64,000 nt of DNA from Slackia heliotrinireducens DSM 20476 (lineage in GTDB: Bacteria > Actinomycetota > Coriobacteriia > Coriobacteriales > Eggerthellaceae): the NCBI RefSeq assembly GCF_000023885.1, contig NC_013165.1, positions 1,178,001 through 1,242,000 of the forward strand, given 5' to 3'. Positions 3,701-49,736 of this stretch are shown here, piece by piece. Numbering within the stretch: position 1 is the stretch's first letter; every line of letters starts with the position of its first letter. The notes beneath the pieces were generated by a model. The model did no database searches, was not told the origin of the DNA, and was given only the letters and a program-made list of their open reading frames with translations. A program made the translations under genes and the position numbers.

Positions 3701-4477
3701 ATGCGTACCGTGGCCGAGATTCGCAAGGCGTTGCAGAACGCCGATGAAGAGCAGTACGAGGTGCTGTCGCGCGCTTTGGTGGCCGATGAGCGCAAAGGGG
3801 TGAAGTCGGCGCTGGCTGCAGCCCGAAAGCGTCTCGATGCTCAAGCCGCAGAGGCTCTGCGGCTTGAAAGCATGTATGCGACGGCGTCTGCTCTGGCCGG
3901 GGGCGGATTGGCCATGGGTCTTGACGAAGTGGGGCGGGGACCTGTCGCCGGCCCCTTGACGGTCGCCGCTGTCGTTCTGCCAGACGCACCCCGGATCGAA
4001 GGGCTGAACGATTCCAAGCAGGTGGCGCCTGCTGCCCGCACCCGCATGGCTGAAAGCATCAAGGCCTGCGCATTGGCCTGGGATATCGAATTCATCGAAC
4101 CTCACGACATAGACGCTTACGGCATGTCCGCCTGCTTGAGGACTGCGTTTGGGCAGGCCATCGCCGCGATAGACGAGCAGTTGTCTGGCGTGGCCGCCGT
4201 GCTTCTGGACGGCAACCCGTTGCATATCGATCCCCGAGAGCGAAACATCATCAAAGGCGATGCGAAGTGCGCCCCGATTGCTGCGGCATCCATTATCGCG
4301 AAGGTCGAGCGGGATGCGCTCATGTGCGAATATGCCAAGGAGTACCCGCAGTACGGGTTCGACTCCAACAAGGGGTACGGCTCGGCCGACCATATCGAAG
4401 CCATCCGCACGTACGGCCTCACCCCTGTCCATAGGGCGAGTTTCTGCCATGCGTGGGCTCAGGAATCGTTGTTCTGA
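3701..4477 (+). CDS. rnhB: Ribonuclease HII
   Basis: Cytoplasmic RNase that nicks RNA-DNA hybrids and single ribonucleotides in DNA. The catalytic motif GLDEVGRGPVAGPL is at about residues 73-86, with further acidic residues in NDSKQVAP and in the DAKCAPIAAASIIAKVERD block. The 258-aa length matches Bacillus-type RNase HII, including an N-terminal helical extension of about 70 residues. The start at 3701 was chosen over earlier in-frame codons because AAAGGTGG sits just upstream. rnhB next to rplS is a conserved Gram-positive arrangement. Confidence 0.93.
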   Translation: MRTVAEIRKALQNADEEQYEVLSRALVADERKGVKSALAAARKRLDAQAAEALRLESMYATASALAGGGLAMGLDEVGRGPVAGPLTVAAVVLPDAPRIEGLNDSKQVAPAARTRMAESIKACALAWDIEFIEPHDIDAYGMSACLRTAFGQAIAAIDEQLSGVAAVLLDGNPLHIDPRERNIIKGDAKCAPIAAASIIAKVERDALMCEYAKEYPQYGFDSNKGYGSADHIEAIRTYGLTPVHRASFCHAWAQESLF

Positions 4478-4508
4478 TACGTTCCTATTTGAAATACGAT
4501 CACCAGGG

Positions 4509-4547
4509 AATCAGGCTCGAATAGAGTTTTCGGGCCTGATTTCTGTT
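4509..4547 (+). terminator. Probable terminator after rnhB
   Basis: AATCAGGC (4509-4516) pairs with GCCTGATT (4534-4541). The stem extends inward through CGAA/TTCG with one mismatch, and TTCTGTTGT follows. It separates rnhB from the regulatory region of yraN. Confidence 0.65.
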
Positions 4548-4572
4548 GTGAAGGGAGGAATCAAGGCTGGGT

Positions 4573-4691
4573 TCAGACCGAGGCAAGGCTTGCGTCAGAC
4601 TTGGTTAGAACGTCAGTTCAGACGCAGCTCAGATTCGGTTCAGGTTTTACATAATCCCAGCTCAGGTTTTACATACAGTTTGGCAAGGTTT
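4573..4691 (+). promoter_or_regulatory. Phased TCAG repeat array and conserved block upstream of yraN-comM-dprA
   Basis: TCAG begins at 4573, 4595, 4618, 4629, 4640 and 4662. From 4618 on the spacing is 11, 11 and 22 bases, so the repeats lie on one face of the helix. The 14-mer TCAGGTTTTACATA occurs twice, 22 bases apart (4640 and 4662). The array runs into TTTACATAC (4668-4676) and TTTGGCAAGGTTT (4679-4691). A matching array with the same downstream block lies before recA. Eleven-base direct repeats are typical of OmpR/PhoB-type or SARP-type activators (known of those families); the actual binding protein is unknown. No standard -10 is evident. Confidence 0.6.
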
Positions 4692-4750
4692 CTTCGGTAC
4701 CGTGGTGTGCACGCTCTGCAAACGCAATGTTTAGAAATGGAGGATGCATA

Positions 4751-5254
4751 ATGGACAACATGGTATACGGGAAGAACCCGGACGAGCCTGCAGAGGTCGA
4801 GCCGCGCCATGTGGTGACCGAAGAGGTTGATGAGGAGTCGTTCGGAAACGACGAACCCTTCGGTCCCTATCGGCTTTCGCGCGAGATGGATCCCAAAGAG
4901 CTGGGACGCAGGGGAGAGGCCTGCGCTTGCATGCTGCTGGATTACAAGGGCTACGAGATTCTTGAGCGGAATTGGAAATGCCCGGCGGGAGAAGCGGACA
5001 TCATCGCGATCGATGAGAACGGGACGCTGGTGTTCGTCGAGGTCAAAACCAGACGAGGGGTGGAAAACGGCCTTCCTGAAGAGGCAATCGGTCGTGCCAA
5101 GCGGGCGCGGTACGAGAAGATTGCGGCGTACTACCTGTCCCAGTACACGGGTCCCGATACCGCATTGAGGTTCGACACGATAGCCTTGTTGGTGATGGAC
5201 AACTACCGAGCCCTGGTCAGACATATCGTCAACGCGTTCGGGCAGGGGGATTAG
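4751..5254 (+). CDS. yraN: YraN/UPF0102 family endonuclease-like protein
   Basis: Protein of the YraN family, with a restriction-endonuclease-like fold. The family core is present: GRRGEACACMLLDYKGYEIL, then GEADIIA and VFVEVKTRRG (the D...ExK nuclease motif). A family protein is about 120 aa; this one is 167 aa because of an acidic N-terminal extension of about 45 residues. The start was chosen because GGAGG (4739-4743) lies 7 bases upstream. The biological role is not established; it is often found near comM and dprA. One base separates it from comM, and it is the first gene of the run downstream of the repeat array. Confidence 0.85.
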   Translation: MDNMVYGKNPDEPAEVEPRHVVTEEVDEESFGNDEPFGPYRLSREMDPKELGRRGEACACMLLDYKGYEILERNWKCPAGEADIIAIDENGTLVFVEVKTRRGVENGLPEEAIGRAKRARYEKIAAYYLSQYTGPDTALRFDTIALLVMDNYRALVRHIVNAFGQGD

Positions 5255-5255
5255 C

Positions 5256-6749
5256 ATGCAGCGCCGCTGTTCGGTGCAGTCCGCCGCGCTGGTGGGCGTC
5301 GAGGCCATTCCTGTGCACGTGGAGGTTGTGGTCATGAGCGGCCTGCCGGGCATCTCCATAGTCGGAATGCCCGACGCCGCTGTACGCGAATCGCAGGAAC
5401 GGGTGAAATCCGCAATCAAGGCAAGCGGCTTCACCATGCCTGGAGACAAGATCGTCATCAACCTGGCACCCGGATCCATCCGAAAAACCGGGGCAGGGTT
5501 CGACCTGCCCATCGCATGTGCGATTCTCGGAGCCACAGGGCAGGTGGATCCGCGGGTCATGAGCTCGTTTCTCCTGGTGGGTGAGCTGTCTTTGGGAGGG
5601 AAGGTCCGTCCTGTGCCCGGCACGCTGCCCTGTGCGCTGCTGGCCCGTCATCTGGGGCTGAAATTCGCGGTGCCGGCAGATGCCGAAGACGCCGTGCCCC
5701 TGGAGGGCTTGGACCAGCGCCAGATAAAATCCTTGGGCGAGATGCGCTTATGCGATTTGCTGCCCGCTCATTTCAAGGAGCCTGGTCAGGCGCCTCCACT
5801 CTTGGACTTCTCGGAGATCCACGGTCATGCGGCAGCCAAGCGCGCGATGCAGATCGCATCGGCAGGAGAGCACGGCATTCTGCTCATGGGCCCTCCCGGC
5901 TCAGGCAAGACCATGCTGGCCCGCGCCATGCCTTCCATCCTTCCACCTCTAAGCGAGTCGGAAGCCTTGGAGGCGGCCGCCATCCACTCGGTGGCCGGGG
6001 AGCCGGTCGACGGGATTCTTGCCGGTATGAGGCCCTTCAGAAAACCGCATCACTCGACGAGCATGGCGGGACTTGTGGGAGGGGGAAGTCCTGTGCGGCC
6101 TGGCGAGATATCGCTTGCCCACAAAGGGGTACTCTTTCTGGATGAGATCGCCGAATTCAAGCCGGCGTCGTTGCAGGCGCTGCGCCAACCCATGGAGGCC
6201 GGGTCCATCTCGGTCACGCGCGTCCATGGCAATGTGGATATGCCTGCAGAGTTCATGCTGGTGGCGGCTTCGAACCCGTGTCCGTGCGGCTATTACGGCG
6301 ACCCTGAGAAGCCCTGTTCCTGCAGTGAGCAGGCAGTCAGACGATATCAAAACAGGATAGGCGGACCTTTGCTGGACCGCATAGATATGCATGTGGATGT
6401 GTGGCGCACCGATCCTGGAACCATTCTCAGCAGCAGCTCGGAGGAGCTGACGTCCGCCCGTCTGCGGGAGGGCGTGATGACCGCCCGATCGTTTTCGTCA
6501 TGGCGCCACGAGCATTTAGGGGATGCAGAACGCACCCGCAACGTGCAAGAGCTGGTTGCGTCGTGCCGTATGACACCTGCCTGCCGGTCGCTGTTGGAGC
6601 TGTCGGCCAAGACCCACCACATGTCAGGGCGTGGCATCTCCCGTGTGCTTGCCGTGGCGCGCACCATAGCCGATTTGGAGGAAAGCGAAACGGTGTCCGA
6701 CGAGCATATCCTGGAAGCTTTGGGGTTCCGCATGAGAAAGGGGGCGTGA
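5256..6749 (+). CDS. comM: ComM/YifB family Mg-chelatase-like AAA+ helicase
   Basis: AAA+ ATPase related to ComM, a hexameric helicase that promotes branch migration during natural transformation in Gram-negative species. The N-terminal Lon-like S5 domain covers residues 1-165. Walker A GPPGSGKT is at about residues 211-218, Walker B is in GVLFLDEIAEF, and a cysteine finger CPCGYYGDPEKPCSC is near residue 348. The sensor region GGPLLDRIDMHV follows. The 497-aa length is normal. It is co-transcribed with yraN and dprA by spacing. Confidence 0.92.
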   Translation: MQRRCSVQSAALVGVEAIPVHVEVVVMSGLPGISIVGMPDAAVRESQERVKSAIKASGFTMPGDKIVINLAPGSIRKTGAGFDLPIACAILGATGQVDPRVMSSFLLVGELSLGGKVRPVPGTLPCALLARHLGLKFAVPADAEDAVPLEGLDQRQIKSLGEMRLCDLLPAHFKEPGQAPPLLDFSEIHGHAAAKRAMQIASAGEHGILLMGPPGSGKTMLARAMPSILPPLSESEALEAAAIHSVAGEPVDGILAGMRPFRKPHHSTSMAGLVGGGSPVRPGEISLAHKGVLFLDEIAEFKPASLQALRQPMEAGSISVTRVHGNVDMPAEFMLVAASNPCPCGYYGDPEKPCSCSEQAVRRYQNRIGGPLLDRIDMHVDVWRTDPGTILSSSSEELTSARLREGVMTARSFSSWRHEHLGDAERTRNVQELVASCRMTPACRSLLELSAKTHHMSGRGISRVLAVARTIADLEESETVSDEHILEALGFRMRKGA

Positions 6750-6751
6750 CT

Positions 6752-7711
6752 ATGGCGTCGGCAGTTGTTCAGGTTCGACGGCTTACGGGCCCGCGAAGCA
6801 AGCTGTCTTTGGGCGAAGAGGGGTTTCCTGCCGCTTTGCAGAGTATCCCGCATCCGCCTAAAGAGCTGTACGTGGTGGGTGATCCAGGCGCTTTGCGTGA
6901 AGGATTGGCGGTGGTCGGCGCCCGAAAGGCCACGCCTTATGGAAAAAACGCGGCTTCGCTGTTCGCCGGCATGGCCGCCCGCCATGGCGTGGTGGTCGTC
7001 TCCGGAGGAGCCAAGGGGTGTGACGCTGCGGCGCATCGGGCGGCCCTCGAGGCGGGCGGAACCACCGTCTGCTTTCTGGGCGGAGGCTGCGACATGCCCT
7101 ATCCGGTTGAGAACTTCGACCTGTTCCAGCAGGTGGTCGATGCCGGAGGGGCGGTCGTGTCCGAACATCCTTGGACGTTTCATCCCAAACCCTACACCTT
7201 CAGAACGCGCAATCGGCTCATTGCAGGGTTGGCGAAGGCTACCTTGATTGTGGAGGCGGGGCTTCCCAGCGGTACGTTCTCTACGGCCGATGAGGCGTTG
7301 TCGGCGAACAAGGATGTCCTGGTGGTTCCCGGGTCCATCTTCTCGGCCACATCCAAGGGGGCCAACCGCCTGCTGCATCAGGGTGCGACCCCTGTGGTGG
7401 ACGAGGAGACCTTCGACATGCTGCTGCAGTCGCTGTTTCCGCATTATCTTCCGGATGTGGGGCAGCAGGCCCATCTGCCGCTGTTCGGCAACGTGTCGGC
7501 AGCGAGCTCGGTTGCGACGCGCAAGCTCGAAGGCCTGTCGCTGGAGGTGTTCAGGTCCTTGGAGGCGAACCCCATGCGTATGGATGAAATCATCGAGAAG
7601 TGTTCGGAAGGCGTCGGGCAAGGTCCTCAAGGTATCGTGAAAGCCATCGCTGAACTCGAGGCCAGAGGGGTGGTCGAACGGTATCCTGATGGACGTTTCG
7701 GGCCGCGTTGA
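6752..7711 (+). CDS. dprA: DNA processing protein DprA (Smf)
   Basis: Binds incoming single-stranded DNA and loads RecA during transformation. The Rossmann-like DprA core is clear: VVGARKATPYG, VVSGGAKGCDAAAHRAAL, TVCFLGGGCDMPYP, LIVEAGLPSGTFSTADEAL and VVPGSIFSATSKGANRLL. A C-terminal winged-helix domain covers about residues 260-319. The start at 6752 is 2 bases after the comM stop, behind AAAGGGGG. The 319-aa length is slightly shorter than Gram-negative DprA because there is no N-terminal SAM domain. In Bacillus topA sits between dprA and trmFO; here it is absent. Confidence 0.93.
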   Translation: MASAVVQVRRLTGPRSKLSLGEEGFPAALQSIPHPPKELYVVGDPGALREGLAVVGARKATPYGKNAASLFAGMAARHGVVVVSGGAKGCDAAAHRAALEAGGTTVCFLGGGCDMPYPVENFDLFQQVVDAGGAVVSEHPWTFHPKPYTFRTRNRLIAGLAKATLIVEAGLPSGTFSTADEALSANKDVLVVPGSIFSATSKGANRLLHQGATPVVDEETFDMLLQSLFPHYLPDVGQQAHLPLFGNVSAASSVATRKLEGLSLEVFRSLEANPMRMDEIIEKCSEGVGQGPQGIVKAIAELEARGVVERYPDGRFGPR

Positions 7712-48426: not shown

Positions 48427-48514
48427 ATTCAGGCTCAGCTCAGGTTCAGTTCAAAACCGGTTCAGGTTTTGGCCGTGTTTTGATGCAAAGTTTACATACG
48501 ATTTGGCAAGGTTT
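48427..48514 (+). promoter_or_regulatory. Phased TCAG repeat array and conserved block upstream of recA
   Basis: Four consecutive 11-base units begin at 48427, 48438, 48449 and 48460 (ATTCAGGCTCA, GCTCAGGTTCA, GTTCAAAACCG, GTTCAGGTTTT). After a 20-base gap follow TTTACATAC (48491-48499) and TTTGGCAAGGTTT (48502-48514). Over the 24-base block, 22 positions match the copy before yraN (4668-4691). It lies 59 bases upstream of the SOS promoter, so recA seems to have a second control region. Confidence 0.6.
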
Positions 48515-48572
48515 GTGCTGTTAAATGGTCGTGTCGGAGGATAAAACTTCAATGGCCATTTTGAACATCTTC

Positions 48573-48601
48573 TTGACTTGAGAACATATGTTCGTAATAA
48601 T
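48573..48601 (+). promoter_or_regulatory. SOS promoter of recA with LexA box
   Basis: TTGACT (48573-48578), 17-base spacer, AATAAT (48596-48601). The LexA box AGAAC-atat-GTTCG (48581-48594) fills the spacer, so repressor and RNA polymerase would compete. Confidence 0.85.
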
Positions 48602-48650: not shown

Positions 48651-49736
48651 ATGGCACGTAACTCACAACCGAAAAACATTTCGGACATCGACAACAAGGA
48701 CGTGGCGTTGAAAAACGCTACGGAGCAGATCAATAAGAAGTTCGGCAAAGGTGCCATCATGAAGCTTGGCGAAGATGCCGAAAAGCTGGAGGTCGGCGTC
48801 ATTCCCACAGGTGCGCTTTCGCTGGATGCTGCATTGGGTATCGGCGGCGTGCCACGTGGCCGAATCATCGAGGTCTACGGCCCCGAGGCAAGCGGCAAAA
48901 CCACGCTGGCTCTGCAGATTCTTGCAGAGGCCCAGGCCGCAGGCGGCATCGCTGCGTTCATCGATGCGGAGCACGCCCTCGATCCAACCTATGCGGCCCG
49001 CTTGGGCGTAGACATAGATGAGTTGCTCATTGCCCAGCCGAGCACCGGCGAAGAGGCGCTTGAGGTCTGCGACATGCTGGTGCGTTCCAACGCCATCGAC
49101 TGCATCGTTATCGACTCCGTCGCGGCTCTGGTGCCACGTGCAGAAATCGAAGGCGAAATCGGCGACGCAAGCGTCGGCCTGCAGGCACGTCTCATGTCCC
49201 AGGCATTGCGCAAGCTTGCCGGCTCGCTGTCTAAATCGAATACCACGTGCATCTTCATCAACCAGCTGCGTGAGAAGATCGGCGTCATGTTCGGCAATCC
49301 CGAAACCACTACGGGCGGCCGTGCCCTGAAGTTCTTCGCCAGCGTTCGTATCGACGTGCGCCGTATCGAAACGTTGAAGAACAAGAGCAACGAGCCCTGC
49401 GGCAACCGCGTGCGTGCCAAGGTCGTCAAGAACAAAGTGGCTCCGCCGTTCCGTCAGGCCGAGTTCGACCTCATGTACGGAACCGGCATTTCTCGCGAAG
49501 GCTGCATTCTCGACATGGGCGTCGAAGCGGACGTCGTCACCAAGAGCGGCTCGTGGTACACCTATGGCGAAGAGCGCCTGGGCCAGGGTCGCGATGCCGC
49601 TAAGGAGATGCTGCGCACCAATCCCGACCTGCGCGACGAGATCGAAGCCAAGGTGCGGGAATACTTCGACATTCCGATGCCCGGCCAATCGGTGACCGTT
49701 GATGTGGCCGAAGAGAACGCTGGCGGCTTGGAATAG
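48651..49736 (+). CDS. recA: Recombinase RecA
   Basis: Strand-exchange protein of homologous recombination and the co-protease that triggers LexA cleavage. Walker [11 protein letters not shown] is at about residues 77-86, followed by [22 protein letters not shown] and the L2 loop region [24 protein letters not shown]. The 361-aa length is normal, with a short acidic C-terminus. AAGGAG lies 6 bases before the ATG. It is followed by recX and is controlled by LexA and perhaps by the repeat array. Confidence 0.98.

Follow-up and report, generated by a model that had tools for sequence, protein, structure and literature searches.

One factor, ComK in Bacillus and ComX/SigX in Streptococcus, switches on the genes for DNA uptake, processing and recombination. 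The promoter arrays of Slackia heliotrinireducens described here would be alike in such single-factor control, whereas their regulator and promoter are unrelated to those of either system. Natural transformation in Micrococcus luteus depends on the Tad/Flp pilus and needs the tad genes, with comEA/comEC (PMC4322843), and the part of that account available to us names no common operator or master regulator. S. heliotrinireducens has the same actinobacterial gene set of tad and comEA/comEC, known here from the genes. In a partial search of the openly licensed literature, no report of a competence regulon or of natural transformation in Coriobacteriia was found, and none of SARP-controlled competence.

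SARP sites are described as direct repeats 11 or 22 bp apart, the last one 8 bp from the -10 element, and the afs box as two 11-bp repeats, 22 bp in all, centred at -29.5 (PMC10936776), while PimR binds CGGCAAG heptamers with 4-bp spacers (PMC5930380). As far as the cited sections describe them, the afs box and the PimR, SanG and PolR operators of Streptomyces resemble the arrays reported here in having 11-bp direct repeats just upstream of the -10 element and a poor -35 element. The Streptomyces operators, in the same sections, control antibiotic genes and contain two to three repeats (PMC10936776, PMC5930380), whereas the arrays reported here contain up to 8-9 in-phase units, have DNA-uptake targets and differ in unit sequence from species to species. 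The best explanation, to which we assign a probability of about three in four, is that these arrays are SARP-type operator-promoters that would drive a competence regulon; its computed basis comprises the conserved sites, the genes that they precede, promoter geometry, and the domain and predicted fold of the candidate regulator.

The TCAG array upstream of yraN-comM-dprA

The genome of S. heliotrinireducens (G000) is a single contig of 3,165,038 bp, and the window is the whole stretch of 64,000 bp that was analysed (genome positions 1178001-1242000). Unless given as genome positions or with a locus handle, coordinates are those of the window, and all window features listed are on the plus strand. 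Sequence reading and a phase count placed a TCAG array at 4573-4665, upstream of an operon identified by Pfam as yraN (UPF0102; 4751-5254, with a further in-frame ATG at 4727), comM (Mg-chelatase family; 5256-6749) and dprA (6752-7711). TCAG occurs at 4573, 4595, 4613, 4618, 4629, 4640 and 4662; the positions given in a first-pass annotation of this DNA were all correct, and the copy at 4613 is an addition to them. The perfect 14-base repeat that it had reported, TCAGGTTTTACATA, was likewise found as exact copies at 4640 and 4662, 22 bases apart. The units at 4618, 4629, 4640 and 4662 lie 66, 55, 44 and 22 bp from the CAAG of the proximal unit described below, in an 11-bp register.

Window statistics by themselves make a weak case for the array. 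With two mismatches allowed at most, the pattern of three TCAGs in 11-bp phase matched six times in the window versus 4.7 times in shuffled sequences (37 of 100 shuffles reached six), and the 14-base repeat, with up to three mismatches, matched three times versus 1.0 (10 of 100 shuffles reached three). Tandem Repeats Finder reported no repeat over 4400-4800. Over the whole genome, the triple-TCAG pattern with at most one mismatch matched 24 times versus 4 for the reversed control. By our own count these 24 matches represent 13 places, five of which contain the core TTACATACNNNTYGGCAAGGTT described below. Isolated matches at genome positions 943973, 2121934 and 2147701 look like chance, and arrays without the core stand before other genes at 76649, 557477, 1037221, 2167760 and 2594722-2594824. 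The 11-bp-phased TCAG array is real and part of a genome-wide promoter class, with a genome-wide frequency well above chance.

Core-less TCAG arrays precede tRNA-Gln/Glu-like, topA-like and other genes (L059:2722-2810; L055, L056, L060 and L062).

A promoter core and the genes behind its eleven copies

Side-by-side reading of the triple-TCAG places led to the recognition of a shared block 3' of the arrays. At yraN this block, TTACATACAGTTTGGCAAGGTT, lies directly 3' of the array at 4669-4690, is better conserved than the array and is missing from the first-pass annotation. A search of the whole genome with the core TTACATACNNNTYGGCAAGGTT at up to three mismatches gave 11 matches, the yraN copy among them, versus one for the control; eight were perfect, two had one mismatch and one had two. 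Alignment of the 11 core promoters yielded about 93 bits across 105 columns, which is an overestimate because the promoters were selected on the core. Among the TCAGs within 150 bp of a core, 32 of 42 fall in two adjacent 11-bp phases (binomial P 4e-16, both phases having been picked after the data were seen), compared with 7 of 26 in a control stretch. Counted relative to the proximal unit, 22 of the 42 are at phase 1 and 10 at phase 0; array units in this genome are mostly TCAG, not CAAG, and most are offset by one base from the register of the proximal unit.

The genes behind the cores were taken from ORFs of our own gene caller, inspection of translations and Pfam scans. Single copies precede comEA-comEC-holA, with ComEA named by Pfam and the other two by eye; yraN-comM-dprA, named by Pfam; recA; rpsF-ssb-rplI, named by eye; a Tad pilus operon in which cpaB was recognised by Pfam (RcpC and SAF) and cpaE by eye, together with a fragment of tadA; the gene for a prepilin peptidase of family A24 (Pfam); and the gene for a surface protein of 1209 aa (by eye), whose partner is sortase-like, with a Sortase score of 21.9 bits that is under the cut-off of 26.6. 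Three further copies precede three DUF559-like paralogues, two of which were scanned, one passing the DUF559 cut-off and the other giving only a sub-cut-off MTES_1575 match, and one copy precedes a gene whose 279-aa product matches DUF6557 below the cut-off.

Six of the 11 core sites thus head competence, recombination or pilus operons, namely those of comEA-comEC, comM-dprA, recA, ssb, the Tad pilus and the prepilin peptidase, which is the kind of outcome that the first-pass annotation had named as support from a genome scan. The chance of six in 11 is below 2e-9 if 10-15 such operons among 1000-2000 transcription units are assumed, with operon classes that were defined after the list was seen. 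A single operator precedes uptake-channel, processing and recombination genes.

A multi-copy family starting with a SALxYWR/TALDYYR-like motif recurs in the regulon (L057, L074, L077, L220 and L235), and the copies scanned have a DUF559-like C-terminus.

The recA gene itself lies in the window (48651-49736, ORF call). Upstream of it are a second array (48429-48465, with TCAG at 48429, 48435, 48440, 48446 and 48462) and the window's second core copy (48492-48513), followed by TTAAAT at the -10 position (48521-48526). By eye, an SOS-box-like palindrome, GAACATATGTTC (48582-48593), a putative SOS box, lies in a separate promoter nearer to recA. Such a nearer promoter with an SOS-box-like palindrome (48573-48601 in the window), distinct from the array promoter, is present in most relatives compared.

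Promoter geometry and comparison with SARP operators

At yraN, the proximal 11-bp SARP-like unit, TGGCAAGGTTT (4681-4691), consists of a heptamer (4681-4687) and four further bases, comparable with the PimR heptamer CGGCAAG and its 4-bp spacer. Six bp past this unit (4692-4697) stands a -10-like hexamer, TACCGT (4698-4703), a putative promoter element that the first-pass annotation does not contain. In S. heliotrinireducens, TA...T was found exactly 6 bp past the unit in 8 of 12 CGGCAAGGTTT-like units. At the same 6-bp gap it was found in 13 of 57 units and 13 of 26 regions in G005 and G009, and, for a degenerate unit that was defined once the regions had been inspected, with duplicates removed, in 14 of 209 units and 14 of 24 regions in G014 and G018. 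Every other gap from 0 to 25 bp gave at most four cases in all three genome sets. This unit-based scan replaced an automatic one for TA...T at positions in register with the main array, which was successful at only 4 of 17 G014 loci.

Both features that mark SARP promoters were found, direct repeats at 11 or 22 bp and a last repeat at a fixed short distance from the -10 element, which begins 6 bp past the unit. A -10 element starts at -12. Being 22 bp long and centred at -29.5, the afs box, as given in the cited section, ends at -19, which is 6 bp before that start. From the heptamer to the -10 element the gap is 10 bp versus the 8 bp stated for SARPs, with agreement only when whole 11-bp units are taken, and the exact 8-bp figure depends on how the repeat is bounded. 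The units of G005 and G009 equal the PimR pattern of CGGCAAG plus a 4-bp spacer; upstream of G009 recA, the sequence reads CGGCAAG-GTTT-CGGCAAG-ATTC-GGGCAAG-GTTT-CTGCAAG-GGTT-CGGCAAG-GTTT, then six bases, then TTATAT. The first-pass annotation had left the choice between OmpR/PhoB- and SARP-type activators; the 11-bp spacing on which it relied holds, and the unit, spacing, regulator domain and fold favour the SARP type.

Conservation of the arrays in related genomes

The exact core, at up to two mismatches, was absent from all 11 other genomes of the genus searched, and orthologous upstream regions were therefore compared instead. In many relatives these contain 11-bp-phased arrays whose units have drifted (GGCAAGGTTTC, CGCTKGATTCC). 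For each gene, self-similarity at lag 11 across 30 genomes, S. heliotrinireducens included, gave combined Z values of 6.9 for yraN, 5.4 for comEA and 8.0 for recA, which are inflated because the genomes are related. Further peaks were present at lags 22, 33 and 44, that of recA at lag 33 (8.4) being slightly above lag 11. With regions taken at fixed offsets, some coding sequence is included, and individual genomes were not all positive. Six control sets (coding downstream and far upstream) had only multiples of three among their eight strongest lags, and their lag-11 Z lay between -4.4 and 0.2. The loss of phasing in relatives that the first-pass annotation had named as evidence against its proposal was not seen; the phasing is kept while the letters have changed.

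Searches with unit patterns written after inspection of the relatives' upstream regions gave 49 matches in G005 and 25 in G009, both congeners, versus 0 and 1 for the reversed controls, and 86 in G014 and 6 in G018, of other genera, versus 0 in both controls. Array regions were retrieved for a subset of these matches (12 in G009, 8 in G005, 18 in G014 and 2 in G018). Arrays in these four genomes stand before comEA-comEC, recA, yraN and Tad genes. Those of G009 and G005 stand also at cpaB-cpaE-tadA, at a prepilin peptidase gene and at rpsF-ssb-rpsR-rplI, as well as at ComF-like, RadC-like and surface protein genes, at toxin-antitoxin-like pairs and at SALxYWR-type genes. Of 19 array places in G014, 17 were assigned to genes; four head comEA-comEC-holA, recA, yraN and the Tad operon, and others head Gp49-type toxin-like genes, BrnT, AbiEi, DUF559, a RadC-like gene, a surface protein, the gene that precedes ligA, divergent SALEYWR-type genes and small unnamed genes. 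Gene names in relatives were assigned by eye where Pfam gave no support; a Pfam scan covered eight G014 proteins, one G009 protein and one S. heliotrinireducens protein, three of which had no match and one of which matched Gp49 just under the cut-off. A RecA search of the genome contigs returned few close relatives.

Two further observations were made in these genomes. In G005 and G009, a distal array and a proximal core recur 141-155 bp apart at several places (e.g., G005:C93:10150/10006 and G009:C5:5557/5698), with one pair at 175 bp, which suggests looping or a second binding block. Many toxin-antitoxin-like genes (Gp49, BrnT and AbiEi) in G014 and G005/G009 carry the same arrays as the competence genes (L200-L239).

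A candidate SARP regulator

A protein of 907 aa (genome positions 1039167-1041890), with an N-terminal P-loop region and a C-terminal SARP domain (winged helix plus BTAD, residues about 655-905), is likely the regulator of the arrays, as judged from domain and model comparisons. Attention was first drawn to such C-terminal SARP regulators by a weak match to PF00486 among long frames. Pfam BTAD scores were 42-57 bits in three species versus a cut-off of 22.1, while Trans_reg_C, by sequence alone, was below the cut-off or unlisted, and a comparison of the domain with the PDB by sequence alone gave weak matches (E 0.1). An AlphaFold2 model of the domain (28 sequences) had a pLDDT of 95.2, and Foldseek matched this predicted structure to AfsR in a transcription complex (8k60; TM 0.77, E 4.6e-8) and to EmbR (2fez; TM 0.80), with an overall TM range of 0.75-0.80. 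The predicted structure is thus an OmpR-type winged helix joined to BTAD in an AfsR/EmbR fold. The protein resembles the large SARPs AfsR and PimR in combining winged helix and BTAD with a P-loop region, but differs from the AfsR-like arrangement, in which, according to the cited descriptions, the SARP domain is N-terminal.

A search with the SARP domain of G010 gave matches in 38 of 41 genomes, S. heliotrinireducens included, and none in G013 (which also lacks comEA and yraN), G032 or G040. Some matches are weak (e.g., G034, E 2e-8), and weak matches among the 38 may not be orthologues. An 11-bp TCAG array stands upstream of comEA in G040, although the search found nothing there, and G024, G035 and G039 have a SARP match while comEA was not found. 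S. heliotrinireducens has three additional, weaker SARP-like matches. The next gene after the regulator is secA-like in five of six genomes read; in G014 (L411), a BrnT-like pair lies between the two. The SARP gene of both G005 and G009 is preceded, about 160-260 bp ahead of its likely start, by three GGCAAG units spaced at 11-bp steps, on the opposite strand and directed away from the gene, and in S. heliotrinireducens an array lies 1.9 kb upstream of the SARP gene, with tRNA genes and another gene between. Recognition helix and unit sequence, compared by eye, do not correspond cleanly; G023 and G005 share GCAAG units while their helices differ.

Alternative explanations

PhoB-family factors use 11-bp tandem repeats near -35, a layout that the arrays resemble, and S. 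heliotrinireducens has 14 PF00486 matches, so an OmpR/PhoB-type response regulator might bind the arrays in place of a SARP. OmpR-type groups were compared in G000, G008, G010 and G018 (9 of 14 G018 PF00486 genes), then in G013, G019, G022 and G024. One group, L339, is present in all comEA-bearing genomes compared (G000, G008, G010, G018, G019 and G022) and not in G013. This group is PhoB itself, by eye from phoU-, pstB- and phoR-like neighbours, and its distribution therefore says little; moreover, it occurs also in G024, which lacks comEA. As the only group common to all comEA-bearing genomes is PhoB, the OmpR-type candidates offered no better choice, and a GlnR-like group (L341) is missing from G022. 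None of the array places assigned, a subset of the matches, is a pho/pst gene, and the recognition helices of three conserved OmpR-type groups are near-identical across four genomes whose repeat units have drifted. The GGCAAG heptamer and the unit spacing fit the SARP literature in the sections cited (PMC10936776, PMC5930380), and a response regulator of this type seems quite unlikely.

Arrays at recA, ssb, RadC-like and ligA-linked genes and at many toxin-antitoxin-like genes would also suit a general DNA-damage or stress regulon in which competence genes are passengers, but in the absence of uptake no role in repair is evident for comEA-comEC, comM-dprA, the Tad pilus or the prepilin peptidase, and recA has its own separate SOS-box-like promoter; we regard such a regulon as improbable. 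That the arrays have no regulatory role, being either intergenic repeats that spread or a product of local base composition, could be argued from the S. heliotrinireducens arrays that lack the core and precede tRNA, topA-like or unknown genes. This is very hard to reconcile with the fixed -10 distance, the gene selectivity, the near-zero reversed-pattern controls and a phasing that outlasts sequence change.

Discussion

The repeated motif is a genuine control site, and its operator class is solid; it stands ahead of most DNA-uptake genes of S. heliotrinireducens and recurs, in altered form, among the relatives. From the genes that it precedes, we infer that the regulon serves natural transformation; core gene content and kept phasing thus support the proposal in the first-pass annotation of a control site of a natural-transformation regulon, with transformation as the putative function. 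In the proposed SARP mechanism, an activator operator would be fused to the promoter, with activator monomers binding the 11-bp direct repeats head-to-tail along a single DNA face. The last repeat would span about -29 to -19, in place of a good -35 element, and the activator bound there would hold RNA polymerase on a plain -10 box. The 907-aa SARP protein would bind the operator sites, and its binding would presumably activate. One regulator would switch on the DNA-uptake and recombination programme because the same operator heads all these operons, and that programme would amount to natural competence via the Tad pilus, with putative uptake of DNA by the cells.

Prophages are known to disrupt comK, and the tadA gene of S. 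heliotrinireducens is reminiscent of this, being split near the Walker A codons with its halves about 24.6 kb apart (L415-L418, genome positions 2265125-2289774). By eye, the insertion contains a DprA-like gene and is bounded on one side by a large gene of serine-recombinase type. Transformation in S. heliotrinireducens may be blocked by the split tadA.

It is conceivable, at slightly less than even odds, that a class-wide competence programme of Coriobacteriia is under one P-loop regulator with a C-terminal SARP domain. Such a programme would couple Tad-pilus uptake to DUF559-type nucleases, a cell-wall surface protein and a set of toxin-antitoxin-like genes, and its operator units and regulator would drift together between species.

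Coriobacteriia (Slackia, Eggerthella and their kin) are common in the gut and difficult to manipulate genetically. A defined regulon and a candidate master regulator make natural transformation in Coriobacteriia directly testable, and the regulon could offer a genetic handle on them. SARP activators would, moreover, extend from antibiotic control to gene transfer.
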